Below, in pieces: positions 33,482 to 38,735 of a stretch of DNA of 64,000 nt; position 1 is the first letter of the stretch, and each line of letters starts with the position of its first letter. The translations under genes were made by a program, and so were the position numbers. Source of the DNA: Rhodobacteraceae bacterium M382 (GTDB lineage: Bacteria; Pseudomonadota; Alphaproteobacteria; Rhodobacterales; Rhodobacteraceae); the NCBI GenBank assembly GCA_025141015.1, contig CP081098.1:1804501-1868500 (forward strand), in the 5' to 3' direction. A model generated the notes under the pieces. The model was not told the origin of the DNA. It saw only the letters and a program-made list of their open reading frames with translations, and did not search any database.

Positions 33482-34132
33482 ATGACAGACTTTGCCGCAC
33501 GTCGCGTCATGATGGTCGACACCCAGGTGCGCCCCTCAGATGTAACCAAATTTCCGATCATTGACGCCATGTTGGACGTCCCGCGCGAGATTTTCGTGCC
33601 GGATGCACAGCGCGAGGCCGCCTATGCCGACGAAATCCTGCCGGTTGGTGGGGGGCGTATGATGCTGGATGCGCGTACTCTGGCCAAGATGCTGGATGTT
33701 TTGAATATCACCAATGACGAGCTGGTTTTGGATATCGGCGGTGGATTGGGATATTCCGGTGCGGTTCTGGCGCAAATGGCCCAGGCCGTGATCCTGGTCG
33801 AAGAAGACGAACTGGCCGATGAGGCACAGGAGCTTTTGGCGCAAACCGGAGCCGACAATGCGGTTGTCCACAAGGGCGCACTGACGGCAGGAGCCGCCGA
33901 ACATGGCCCCTACGATGTCATTTTGCTTCAGGGTGGTGTCGAAGACCTACCAGCGGCCGTGACGGATCAGCTGAAGGAAGGCGGGCGCATCGCCTGCATC
34001 TTTATGTCGGGCAATCTGGGCGAATTGCGCGTTGGTCACAAGGCGGGCGGGGACATCTCGTGGCGTCTGGCGTTCAATGCGGCGGCACCGGTTCTAAATG
34101 GATTTGAAAAGGCGCATGAATTCGCGCTCTAA
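33482..34132 (+). CDS. Protein-L-isoaspartate O-methyltransferase-like protein
   Basis: A 216-residue SAM-dependent methyltransferase of the PCMT family. SAM motif I is VLDIGGGLGYSGAVLAQM, with VEEDELADEAQ after it and PYDVILLQGGVEDLP (motif II region). The canonical PCMT N-terminal V-R-GxFVP segment is only partly present (REIFVPDAQREAAYADEILPVG), typical of the alphaproteobacterial group found before tolC. Real isoaspartyl repair activity is therefore unproven. A hairpin separates it from tolC, 87 bp downstream. Confidence 0.85.
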   Translation: MTDFAARRVMMVDTQVRPSDVTKFPIIDAMLDVPREIFVPDAQREAAYADEILPVGGGRMMLDARTLAKMLDVLNITNDELVLDIGGGLGYSGAVLAQMAQAVILVEEDELADEAQELLAQTGADNAVVHKGALTAGAAEHGPYDVILLQGGVEDLPAAVTDQLKEGGRIACIFMSGNLGELRVGHKAGGDISWRLAFNAAAPVLNGFEKAHEFAL

Positions 34133-34219: not shown

Positions 34220-35638
34220 ATGGGCACGAAACGGACAACAGGCATTTTTCAAAAATTGGTTCTGGCTGGCAGCGTCGCTGTCGGGGCTCTGGTTTCAGGG
34301 GCGCAGGCCGACAATATGACCGACGCCATGATTGGCGCTTACAAGACCAGCGGCCTTCTGGAACAGAACCGGGCCCTGCTGCGGGCCGCGGACGAAGATG
34401 TCGCCCTGTCGGTTTCGGGGCTGCGACCGGTGATCAACTGGATCAGCAGCGCCGAACGGAGCCTGCGGTACAATTCGGCCGGCGTGGCACATGGGACGGG
34501 GCATTCTACGACGCTCTTTACCGGGTTGCGGTTGAACCAGCTGCTGTATGATGGTGGGGCCACCCGGATTTCGGCTATTGCCGCACAGGAAACCGTTTTG
34601 GCGACCCGTCAGGCATTGGTGTCGATCGAGCAGCAGATTCTGCTGCGGGCGGTTGTTGCCTATACCAGCGTTCTGTTGCAGCAGGAAAATGTGGCTCTGC
34701 GGCAGAACAACCTGCGGCTGCTGCGCGAAGAATTGCGCGCGGCACAGGATCGTTTCGACGTGGGTGAAGTGACCCGGACCGATGTGTCGCTGGCCCAGAG
34801 CCGCGTCGCGGCGGCCGAGGCGAGCCTGACGGACGCCCGCGGAGCCCTGATCGACGCCAAATCGGAATACGCCAACGCGGTAGGCAATGATCCTGGCGTG
34901 GTGACGGCTTATCCCACGTTGCCCAAACGGGTGGCTTCGGTGTCCACAGCCCGTTCCATCGCCTTGCAAGGCCACCCGGATCTGCTGAACCAGCAACACC
35001 GGGTCAAGGCGGCCGAGCTCACGGTGCAGGCCCAGAACAAGACATTGGGCCCCTCTGTCAGCTTTCAGGCCGATCTGGGTTTGACCAACCAGGACACAAA
35101 TTCGAGCATTACAACGGACAACCTGGCAGCGCGTATCGACCTGTCCCAGCCGTTGTATCGGGGCGGCAGCCTCTCTGCGGGCATTCGCCGGGTCAAAGCG
35201 GTGCGTGATGCAGAGCGCAGCGCCTTGATTACGGTTCAGCGCAATGTGGTTCAGGGGGTCGATAACGCCTTTGTGTCGCTGGATGTCGCGCGGGCCAACA
35301 TTACATCGCGCAGGGAACAGATCCGGGCGGCCCAGGTTGCCTTTGACGGGATTCGCGAAGAGGCCACATTGGGGGCACGGACCACGTTGGATGTGTTGCA
35401 GGCGGAACAGGAACTGTTGAACGCCAACACTGCCCATATCCAGGCCCAGGCTGAACAGATCATCGCGTCGTTTTCGCTGTTGTCCGCGCAGGGGTTGTTG
35501 ACCGCTGAACGGTTGGGGCTGGCGGTCGAAATCTATGACCCGCTGCTGTATTACAACCTGGTCAAAGGCGCACCCGCCAAGTACAGCAAACAGGGGCGTG
35601 ATCTGGACCGTGTTCTGGAAGCGTTGGGAAAGAAATAA
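34220..35638 (+). CDS. tolC: TolC-family outer-membrane channel protein
   Basis: A 472-residue exit duct for type I secretion and RND/MFS/ABC efflux. It has a long signal peptide (to about residue 31, SGAQA), two structural repeats with helical coiled-coil stretches, NQLLYDGGATR and SQPLYRGGSLSAGIRR (strand-turn signatures of TolC), and LGARTTLDVLQAEQELLNAN near the end of repeat 2. The ribosome-binding site is AGGCGAGGCG. Downstream lies the PopZ-like gene after a 74-bp gap with a large inverted repeat. Confidence 0.93.
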   Translation: MGTKRTTGIFQKLVLAGSVAVGALVSGAQADNMTDAMIGAYKTSGLLEQNRALLRAADEDVALSVSGLRPVINWISSAERSLRYNSAGVAHGTGHSTTLFTGLRLNQLLYDGGATRISAIAAQETVLATRQALVSIEQQILLRAVVAYTSVLLQQENVALRQNNLRLLREELRAAQDRFDVGEVTRTDVSLAQSRVAAAEASLTDARGALIDAKSEYANAVGNDPGVVTAYPTLPKRVASVSTARSIALQGHPDLLNQQHRVKAAELTVQAQNKTLGPSVSFQADLGLTNQDTNSSITTDNLAARIDLSQPLYRGGSLSAGIRRVKAVRDAERSALITVQRNVVQGVDNAFVSLDVARANITSRREQIRAAQVAFDGIREEATLGARTTLDVLQAEQELLNANTAHIQAQAEQIIASFSLLSAQGLLTAERLGLAVEIYDPLLYYNLVKGAPAKYSKQGRDLDRVLEALGKK

Positions 35639-35662
35639 CAATTCACTCTATCGGTTGTCTGA

Positions 35663-35695
35663 AACTCTGTCACAAGCTACACTTGCGACAGAGTT
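35663..35695. promoter_or_regulatory. Long inverted repeat between tolC and the PopZ-like gene
   Basis: AACTCTGTC (35663-35671) pairs with GACAGAGTT (35687-35695); inside it CAAG (35673-35676) pairs with CTTG (35682-35685) around a CTACA loop, with one A/C mismatch between arms. There is no T-run. It may be an operator or RNA-processing hairpin, 17 bp before the next start. Confidence 0.5.
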
Positions 35696-35712: not shown

Positions 35713-36777
35713 ATGTCTGAACCTGTATCAAATGCCGCGATAGAGGATGTTCTGTCGTCAATTCGCCGTTTGGTGAGCGAAGATTCACGCCGTGAGGAAC
35801 TTGCTCCTGAACCGCGAGAGGTCCCAAAACCGCCACGGCTGGTCCTGACGCCATCTTTGCGTGTGGCAGAGTCCGCAGCGGAATCCACGCTCTCCTCTGC
35901 GCAGGGCAGCCCGGGCCCCATGCGGCTGGGGGACAGCCAACGGGTGTCCATCGCGGTCAATGACGGGGATCTTCAGGATGGGGACCAGGAGTTGACCCAA
36001 ACCCAGGAGTTGACCCAAACCCAGGAGTTGACCCAAACCCAGGCGGCAGACGCTCCCGAAACGATCCCGGAAGAATTGGTCGCAGAAATCGTCTCTGACG
36101 ACCTTCCCGATTCCCAAATGGAAACAGAGGCGGCCAAACCGGCAGATGATGCCGATGATGTGCCGTGGGCCGACCCTGAAAATACGTTGTTTTCAGCGGC
36201 CAAGGTCGAAGTCCTGACAGACCCGGTTCTGGTCCCGGAACACCCGCCCCATGACCAAGACGACGTGCAGGACCAGGTGGAGCGCCATCTGGACGATGCC
36301 GCGCACCTGCAGGAGGCCGCCGGTCACGATGACACAGCCGACGCCGACGAACCGCTCAGCGCCCGGATTGCCGCTCTTGAGACGGCCATCAATCAAAGCG
36401 ATGACCACTGGGAGCCGGATGGCGATTTCGGAGATGATTATGCTGGCACCCCGACAGTGACCATCGAATGGCAGGACCATGTCGATGAGGAGCTTTCGGA
36501 TCCGCTGGAAACCGATGACACCGCCGCGATGGCCGCGATCGTGCCAGATCCGGAGGCAGCCCCGATTGCCGACACCGAGTCAACCGAGGTCGATGAGGAT
36601 CTGGATGTGCTGGCAGGCGAAGACACGTTTCTGGATGAAGAAAGCCTGCGCGAATTGGTTGCCGACATTGTCCGTCAAGAGCTGCAAGGGGCTCTGGGGG
36701 AGCGGATCACCCGCAATGTGCGCAAACTCGTGCGGCGGGAAATCCATCGGGCGCTGGTGGCGCAGGAACTGGACTGA
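35713..36777 (+). CDS. PopZ-like (DUF2497-type) acidic polar-organiser candidate
   Basis: A 354-residue acidic protein with a short N-terminal helix (NAAIEDVLSSIRRLVSED, residues 6-23), a long low-complexity acidic middle (Asp, Glu, Pro, Ala) and a C-terminal helical domain, LDEESLRELVADIVRQELQG then ERITRNVRKLVRREIHRALV. This three-part design and the EDVLSSIRRL-type N-terminus are those of PopZ, the condensate-forming pole organiser of Caulobacter, whose gene also follows a TolC-family gene (rsaFb) as I recall. The middle region includes three identical 6-residue repeats ELTQTQ. Function as a PopZ orthologue is inference. Confidence 0.65.
   Translation: MSEPVSNAAIEDVLSSIRRLVSEDSRREELAPEPREVPKPPRLVLTPSLRVAESAAESTLSSAQGSPGPMRLGDSQRVSIAVNDGDLQDGDQELTQTQELTQTQELTQTQAADAPETIPEELVAEIVSDDLPDSQMETEAAKPADDADDVPWADPENTLFSAAKVEVLTDPVLVPEHPPHDQDDVQDQVERHLDDAAHLQEAAGHDDTADADEPLSARIAALETAINQSDDHWEPDGDFGDDYAGTPTVTIEWQDHVDEELSDPLETDDTAAMAAIVPDPEAAPIADTESTEVDEDLDVLAGEDTFLDEESLRELVADIVRQELQGALGERITRNVRKLVRREIHRALVAQELD
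35986..36043 (+). repeat. Tandem 18-bp repeat inside the PopZ-like gene
   Basis: CAGGAGTTGACCCAAACC occurs three times without a mismatch (35986-36003, 36004-36021, 36022-36039) followed by CAGG. It encodes ELTQTQ repeats in frame. Perfect identity indicates recent slippage, so copy number may vary between strains. Confidence 0.95.
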
Positions 36778-36888: not shown

Positions 36889-38361
36889 TCAACTGGCTGT
36901 GCGGGTGGTCTGCGAAACTGGCCCTGCCAGATCCCACAGCTGGTCCAAGTTGAGGTGTTCTTCCAGATGCACGGCAAGCTGATCCAGAACGTCGTCCACG
37001 CCGTCTTCATAGCGCAGGTCGCTTTGGTGCCCCAGTTCCTCCAGGAATTTGGCGCGAAAGGGGTCCGATGAAAACAGACCGTGCAGATAGGTGCCGCGGA
37101 CCAGACCCGACCGGGATCGGGCGCCTTCGCGTCGCCCATCTATGCCCAGCCAGGCCCGATCACAATCCGGACCGCTGCTGCGTCCCATATGAATTTCGTA
37201 ACCGTCGACCGGTTCATTGCTGTCCAGCACATGCGCCTGGGTCAGGGTAACGGTCTTGGTGCCGCCCATGACTGTATCGACATCCAGCAACCCCAATCCA
37301 TCAACCTTGCCGGGGCGCCCATCGACACCATCGGGGTCGTCAATTGTCTTGCCCAGCATTTGATAGCCGCCACACACGCCCAGAACGTGACCGCCGCGCC
37401 GAACATGGGCATGGATGTCCACATCCCACCCCTGTGCCTTCAAATAGGCCAGGTCTCCGATTGTCGATTTGCTCCCCGGAATCAGGATCAGATCGGCGTC
37501 ACCGGGCAGCGCGCGCCCGGCGGGAACGATGTCGACCGTCACACCAGGTTCGGCCGACAGCGGGTCCAGGTCGTCGAAATTGGCCATACGCTCCAGCTGC
37601 GGGACCACGATCTTGCAGGCCCCGCCCACGTGCGAGGCGATGTCCATCATGTCCTCGGCAGGCAGACGCCAGGCTTCGTTGAACCAGGGAACCACCCCAA
37701 GACAGGGCCACCCGGTGCGCTGCACGATGTCATCGCGCCCCCCGTCAAACAGGCTCAGATCGCCGCGGAACCGGTTGACGGCAAATCCGACGATTTGATT
37801 CAGATCCACGGGGTCCAGAACGGCCTGGGTGCCCACGATCTGGGCAATCACGCCGCCACGATGGATGTCCCCCACCAATAGGACTGGCACGTTTGCAGCA
37901 CAGGCAAAGCCCATATTGGCTATGTCGCCCTGGCGCAGGTTGGTTTCTGCGGGTGATCCTGCGCCTTCGATCAACACCAGGTCCGCGTCGGCTGCCAGCC
38001 GCGCAAAACTCTCCAGCGCGGCATCCAGCAAACCGCTCTTGTCGCGCATGAAACTGCCCGCAGACCGGGTGCCGCGGCGTTGCCCATGAACGATCACCTG
38101 GGCACCGGTGTCGGTCTCGGGCTTCAACAACACCGGGTTCATGTCGGTATGCGGCGTGCGGCGCGCGGCTCGGGCCTGCAGCGCCTGTGCGCGTCCGATT
38201 TCCCCGCCCTCGGGGGTGACGGCGGCATTGTTGGACATGTTCTGTGGTTTGAACGGGGCCACCCGCAGCCCGCGGTTGACAAAGGCCCGCGCCAATCCTG
38301 CGACCACCAACGATTTTCCGACGTTGCTGCCGGTGCCTTGAATCATGATGGCGCGTGTCAT
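36889..38361 (-). CDS. cobQ: Cobyric acid synthase
   Basis: Amidates four side chains of adenosylcobyrinic acid a,c-diamide in cobalamin synthesis. The 490-residue protein has the dethiobiotin-synthase-like domain starting [20 protein letters not shown] (P-loop) and a C-terminal glutamine amidotransferase: nucleophile in [11 protein letters not shown] and histidine in [11 protein letters not shown] 38361 is preceded by GGAGAGAGACC; a 10-codon extension to 38391 is less likely. It stands alone here. I saw no B12-box in the 370 bp upstream. Confidence 0.95.
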
Positions 38362-38735
38362 GGTCTCTCTCCTGTCGTCTGGCTCTGACATGACCGATTT
38401 TTCCGTCTGGTGGAAGACTAGGAATACCCCATCCTGAATGCAGCTTTGGACCCGTCCTGTTTGTGCTCAAAGACGACAGCAGGCGCTGTCCCAGCCTCTT
38501 GTTGGGCTGTGCCCAGCAAGAGGCCACGCCCAACGGGCGGAGGTTTCCCGCCAGGGAAACCGACACCGGGCGGGAGCCCATCAGGACGATCACCAAAGGC
38601 GGGTCACAGCGGTACGATCACAGCAAAGGACGATCACAGGACAGAGATCACTCTGGGGCGACCACTCACAGCAGGGGGAAATTGGAAAGGCGCGCCGACC
38701 AGGCGCGCCCTTCAATCTGCGCAATGCATTTGATA
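38362..38735. other. Structured intergenic region upstream of cobQ
   Basis: No gene recognised in about 370 bp. It holds a 13-bp stem (one G-U) from CCTCTTGTTGGGC to GCCCAGCAAGAGG near 38496-38524, an 8-bp stem GGTTTCCC-GCCA-GGGAAACC near 38542-38561, and an irregular direct repeat built on ACGATCAC (about 38586, 38613 and 38631). Coordinates may be off by one. It ends the small minus-strand gene to its right and precedes cobQ, so hairpins may be terminators or leader structure. Confidence 0.45.

Follow-up and report, generated by a model that had tools for sequence, protein, structure and literature searches.

The window, by which we mean the whole 64,000-nucleotide stretch of contig CP081098.1 from Rhodobacteraceae bacterium M382 that was analyzed, carries an ATG-initiated open reading frame of 354 aa at positions 35713 to 36777 of the forward strand, beginning 74 bp past the stop codon of a TolC-family gene (Table 1). 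On its downstream side, cobyric acid synthase-like and efp genes are found instead of valS, which in this genome lies ~1.05 Mb away; a cobyric acid synthase-like gene often occupies the same place in Rhodobacteraceae loci. Since the N-terminus of the frame is conserved across genera and a conserved -35/-10-like pair with 17-bp spacing lies upstream (29 of 37 sequences versus 0.15% in shuffled sequence), the ATG start is supported. An imperfect inverted repeat in the same upstream region is a possible operator and was absent from the 20 relatives checked.

For the encoded protein, AlphaFold2 (run with ten relatives) predicted helices at residues 7 to 29, 309 to 325, and 327 to 353 with pLDDT of about 90, two weaker helices at residues 186 to 198 and 215 to 232, and low confidence elsewhere. 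A Foldseek search of this model against the PDB returned no meaningful match, as expected for a model that is mostly disordered. The region between residues 27 and 305 contains 27% Asp/Glu and 9% Pro, has a net charge of -0.23 per residue and mostly a pLDDT below 50, and is probably a disordered linker. The helical N-terminus and the acidic, probably disordered middle claimed by the first-pass annotation were both recovered. Two conserved motifs lie in this linker. One, (W/F)EP(D/H), occurs in 32 of 38 relatives versus 0 of 28 canonical PopZs, and the other, L(V/I)LTxxxRV, may correspond to the VLELT motif that canonical PopZ carries; the protein of another member of the family (G083) carries the intermediate form DLLELTPEMRI. 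The tandem units encoding ELTQTQ were not found in ten aligned relatives and are probably a recent expansion lengthening the linker.

Table 1. Features of the candidate popZ locus in the window (coordinates on the window; residues refer to the 354-aa protein)
Feature	Position	Strand	Basis
pcm, protein-L-isoaspartate O-methyltransferase, conserved neighbor	33482..34132	+	PF01135
TolC-family outer-membrane protein gene, conserved upstream neighbor	34220..35638	+	TIGR01844, 263.6 bits, above cut-off
Promoter-like element TTGTCT-17 bp-TACACT, conserved, upstream of popZ	35655..35683	+	29/37 sequences
14-bp imperfect inverted repeat, AACTCTGTCACAAG/CTTGCGACAGAGTT	35663..35695	.	Overlaps predicted -10-like element of popZ
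Diverged popZ orthologue, 354 aa	35713..36777	+	Profile evidence and synteny
N-terminal helix, residues 7-29	35731..35799	+	AlphaFold2 pLDDT about 76-90, 6xry alignment, hhalign E = 6.5e-10
Acidic, low-confidence linker, residues 27-305	35791..36627	+	Composition, mostly pLDDT < 50
Short linker motif L(V/I)LTxxxRV, residues 43-51	35839..35865	+	32/38 relatives
Three perfect 18-bp tandem units (ELTQTQ) within linker	35985..36043	+	Sequence repeat
Linker motif LxxxIAxLEAAI...WEPDG, lineage-specific, predicted helix 215-232	36355..36432	+	(W/F)EP(D/H) counts, AlphaFold2
C-terminal helices, residues 309-353, without canonical Pro/Trp/Asp	36637..36771	+	hhalign E = 3.5e-8, residue table, AlphaFold2
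Cobyric acid synthase-like gene, at the place of valS in canonical loci	36889..38391	-	Named from sequence

PopZ organizes the cell poles in related bacteria. Many Rhodobacterales have been described as having no conspicuous PopZ (PMC5182065), and Rhodobacter sphaeroides is said to contain none (PMC6414705). Our survey fits this literature on PopZ absence, which the first-pass annotation had also mentioned: the curated cut-off of Pfam DUF2497 (PF10691, 27 bits) was passed by only 4 of 100 Rhodobacteraceae genomes (one per genus) versus 153 of 192 genomes drawn from the class, 3 Rhodobacteraceae included. The window protein itself reached 15.9 bits against DUF2497, over profile positions 32 to 73 of 75, and 18.5 bits against NCBIfam PopZ_fam (NF052660, cut-off 125 bits), in its N-terminal part only; both scores are below the cut-offs. 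In a DUF2497 search of its own genome, the gene took the best place with 19.7 bits, also below the cut-off. A second, canonical PopZ elsewhere in this genome was considered and rejected, as the only two other DUF2497 matches both had E-values above 1. A phmmer search of the single sequence against the PDB was as inconclusive as the Pfam and NCBIfam scores, and we therefore turned to comparisons between profiles.

Relatives of the window protein were found in 86 to 87 of the 100 sampled Rhodobacteraceae genera (one genome each). We aligned 38 of them, counting the window protein (A1), and compared this alignment with one of 28 canonical PopZs (A2). With both alignments taken in full, hhalign gave a probability of 90.7% and E = 1.2e-6 over 40 C-terminal columns. 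Taken separately, the N-terminal block matched over 17 columns (E = 6.5e-10, score 34.6 versus a shuffle maximum of 14.3) and the C-terminal block over 41 columns (E = 3.5e-8, score 38.4 versus a shuffle maximum of 18.9). Chance was controlled with 200 column shuffles per block, a set of 2855 ORFs, and the whole PDB. Among the 2855 ORFs, the A1 HMM recovered 25 of 30 canonical PopZs (E < 0.01 in 16 cases) and, outside Rhodobacteraceae loci, nothing else. Against all PDB sequences its only significant match was Caulobacter PopZ (6xry, E = 0.0032), the next match having an E-value of 6.6. In the profile check proposed in the first-pass annotation, the single protein stayed under the curated cut-offs, and the family profiles matched PopZ at both ends, which establishes the homology.

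The alignment with 6xry runs from residue 1 to residue 1 with no gaps, pairing residues 11 to 24 of the window protein (EDVLSSIRRLVSED) with EEILASIRRIISED in the client-binding helix of PopZ. Consequently, E12, R19, and S22 of PopZ correspond to D12, R19, and S22 here. The E12K/R19E mutant of PopZ loses ParB binding and S22P loses ParA binding (PMC10120649). The two end domains of the window protein are homologous to those of PopZ, and the gene almost certainly descends from popZ.

Gene order offers evidence for this ancestry that is independent of the profiles and agrees with them. The order and orientation pcm-tolC-X were conserved in 30 of 30 Rhodobacteraceae loci examined, and pcm-tolC-popZ, mostly followed by valS, in 18 of 20 canonical loci, in line with the conserved position after a TolC-family gene noticed in the first-pass annotation. 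Likewise, popZ adjoins valS and an outer-membrane efflux gene in Magnetospirillum gryphiswaldense and Caulobacter crescentus (PMC6414705).

Reading the post-tolC slot directly in Rhodobacteraceae that had no clear A1 match uncovered a range of forms. In G054 the slot lies directly behind pcm and holds a canonical PopZ. Long proteins whose C-terminal end resembles that of PopZ are encoded in G008 and G017, in the order tolC-X-valS; from stop to stop these ORFs measure 937 aa (G008, locus L120, 3340-6150, reverse strand) and 633 aa (G017, L121, 6230-8128, reverse strand), far longer than the canonical PopZs examined. In G083 and G015 the order is also tolC-X-valS, and the C-terminal end of the protein is altered; that of G083 matches both profiles, with 51.9 bits for A1 and 28.9 bits for A2. 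In a tree of Pcm and TolC, G015 branches first within the main Rhodobacteraceae group, to which G054, G008, G017, and G083 do not belong; some of the nodes concerned are poorly supported.

It could still be argued that the slot after tolC was taken over by an unrelated gene, whose resemblance to PopZ reflects convergence of amphipathic helices and acidic linkers. The subthreshold scores of the single sequence would fit this explanation, but profile E-values that beat the shuffles, the tolC-X-valS intermediates, and the residue-1-to-residue-1 alignment make it very improbable. Convergence or replacement of the gene in the slot was rejected on the graded intermediates, G083 among them. The diverged orthologue put forward in the first-pass annotation is upheld: profile-profile comparison, gene order, and intermediate forms together establish common descent, and the gene is PopZ by descent and not a canonical DUF2497 protein.

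The forms in the slot also extend toward loss. Eroded remnants lie between tolC and valS in G014 and G090, and the slot holds short degenerate PopZ versions in G094, G045, and G001. The eroded short PopZ-like ORFs after tolC lie at L126, L127, L128, and L136 (G094, G045, G001, and G090, respectively). No PopZ-like ORF was seen in the slot of G029, G030, G059, and G093. This suggests that popZ is decaying in several Rhodobacteraceae genera, and, since it is degenerate or missing there, the gene is not indispensable.

Compared with Caulobacter crescentus PopZ (6xry, residues 1 to 133), the window protein shares the three-part layout, the acidic linker, the place of the gene after tolC, the client helix at equal residue numbers, and the last two C-terminal helices (residues 309 to 353), which are homologous to helices 3 and 4 of the PopZ self-assembly domain. 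Of the 36 columns compared in these helices, 13 keep the consensus residue and several more show conservative replacements. The window protein differs, however, in having no RPxLxxWxDxxLP signature: the canonical Pro (column 11), Trp (column 16), and Asp (column 18) are absent from all 38 aligned relatives, window protein included, and their columns mostly hold Gln/Glu, Ala, and Gly. No helix 2 could be detected in the assembly domain, the DUF2497 match beginning at profile position 31 to 32 of 75, and equivalence of the predicted helices 186-198 and 215-232 to helix 2 was not demonstrable. The PopZ-like C-terminal helical domain of the first-pass annotation holds as regards helices 3 and 4, but it reproduces the canonical domain imperfectly. 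The Rhodobacteraceae linker is about twice as long (mean of 251 aa versus 113), is poorer in proline (9% versus 21% in the canonical set), and carries its two conserved motifs, and valS has moved away. M. gryphiswaldense PopZ and other DUF2497 proteins share the outer-membrane efflux gene neighborhood (PMC6414705), but they keep valS adjacent and the assembly domain canonical, and their localization pattern varies by host. Across alphaproteobacteria, the PopZ assembly domain is reported to be conserved and the linker to be variable (PMC9512792). The Rhodobacteraceae form reverses this trend, with the assembly domain changed and the client helix kept.

These changes could mean that the popZ descendant no longer builds a polar matrix and serves as an adaptor, soluble or weakly oligomeric, in which only the client helix has been kept, en route to loss. 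The lost Pro, Trp, and Asp, the undetected helix 2, the longer linker, and the degenerate or missing copies in several genera all lean this way, as does the finding that fewer helices weaken condensation in Caulobacter (PMC9512792). However, few parts of the protein are as well conserved as the C-terminal block, and its many columns invariant across 38 sequences imply that selection strongly maintains a role in assembly or binding, so we consider such an adaptor distinctly unlikely. That both ends are strongly conserved favors a function that has remained two-ended.

Further information comes from ZitP, which is a partner of PopZ and not a homologue of the window gene. To bind PopZ, ZitP uses Trp35 and a basic patch, and residue 27 is needed for binding; the R. 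sphaeroides protein has a natural R27Q change, binds Caulobacter PopZ poorly and is largely diffuse with it, and reverting the change (Q27R) makes it robustly polar and restores binding to Caulobacter PopZ (PMC5182065). Almost every genome that we probed has a ZitP, and Trp35 was present wherever ZitP could be parsed with confidence. In families other than Rhodobacteraceae, all 30 genomes that carry canonical PopZ and gave a confident parse have Arg or Lys at residue 27. In parsed Rhodobacteraceae with neither canonical nor transitional PopZ, this residue is Gln in 44 of 48; the remaining four (G023, G030, G014, and G090) have Glu or Lys27, and their PopZ is altered, eroded, or absent. Three Rhodobacteraceae whose PopZ is canonical or transitional (G054, G017, and G083) keep Arg27, the ZitP match of G008 was weak and ambiguous, and G015, with its altered PopZ and valS still adjacent, already has Gln27. 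G054 (L162 and L166) and G017 (L155 and L165), two of the genomes that keep Arg27, have two ZitP-like zinc-ribbon proteins each. ZitP has thus changed in parallel with PopZ in Rhodobacteraceae. Because these genomes share ancestry, the change is a correlated one along the tree that may have happened only once, and it does not amount to many independent tests. The ZitP ribbon was not found in 2 of 56 Rhodobacteraceae, G029 and G059, both among the four genomes without a PopZ-like slot gene (chance about 0.004, hypergeometric); in these two (L125 and L132, respectively) the PopZ and ZitP genes may have been lost together.

The reading that we favor, and hold with reasonable confidence, is that of a diverged Rhodobacteraceae popZ encoding a client-binding polar scaffold with a rebuilt assembly domain. 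For the scaffold function at the pole taken by itself, the sequence makes a yes somewhat more probable than a no; we infer polar localization, oligomerization, client binding, and ZitP binding. Under this proposal, popZ would have been inherited in an ancestral pcm-tolC-popZ(-valS) locus and would then have diverged strongly. Small oligomers would form through self-association of the C-terminal helices, the long acidic linker would hold the assembly open, and the conserved N-terminal helix at its tip would capture polar clients, most likely ParB/ParA at the chromosome origin; the genome of the window encodes a chromosomal ParB. Membrane-anchored ZitP with a re-tuned zinc ribbon would help to place PopZ at the pole.

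A scaffold with other clients, e.g., division or growth proteins, would leave the chromosome origin unanchored. ParB1 of R. sphaeroides does not bind Caulobacter PopZ in a two-hybrid assay (PMC9298525), ZitP residue 27 has changed, and PopZ appears functionally specialized in Rhizobiales (PMC5182065), all of which could be accommodated by such a switch of clients. We nevertheless hold it to be rather unlikely, as the ParA/ParB-binding helix ranks with the best-conserved stretches of the protein: R19 and S22 are identical and E12 is replaced by Asp. Returning to the client-binding polar scaffold, OriC1 has been suggested to attach transiently to a polar factor in R. sphaeroides (PMC6315104), and a diverged cognate PopZ, if this species has one, would account both for this factor and for the failure of ParB1 to bind the Caulobacter protein. 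Tentatively, and at somewhat less than an even chance, the self-assembly domain and the ZitP interface may have been remodeled jointly; the result would be an orthogonal polar condensate, without interaction with canonical Caulobacter partners, that would be the polar factor holding the Rhodobacteraceae chromosome origin.

We found no description of the Rhodobacteraceae post-tolC gene in the literature searched, which came mostly from outside subscription journals. The presumed absence of PopZ had left the positioning of the origin at the pole and the role of ZitP unexplained in many Rhodobacterales. With this gene, Rhodobacteraceae gain a concrete candidate for the missing polar organizer, and, as it can be found by position, origin positioning and the role of ZitP become directly testable. 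Furthermore, the family offers a natural series that runs from canonical PopZ through a rebuilt form to loss and illustrates how the assembly domain of a condensate scaffold can change with its client helix kept.
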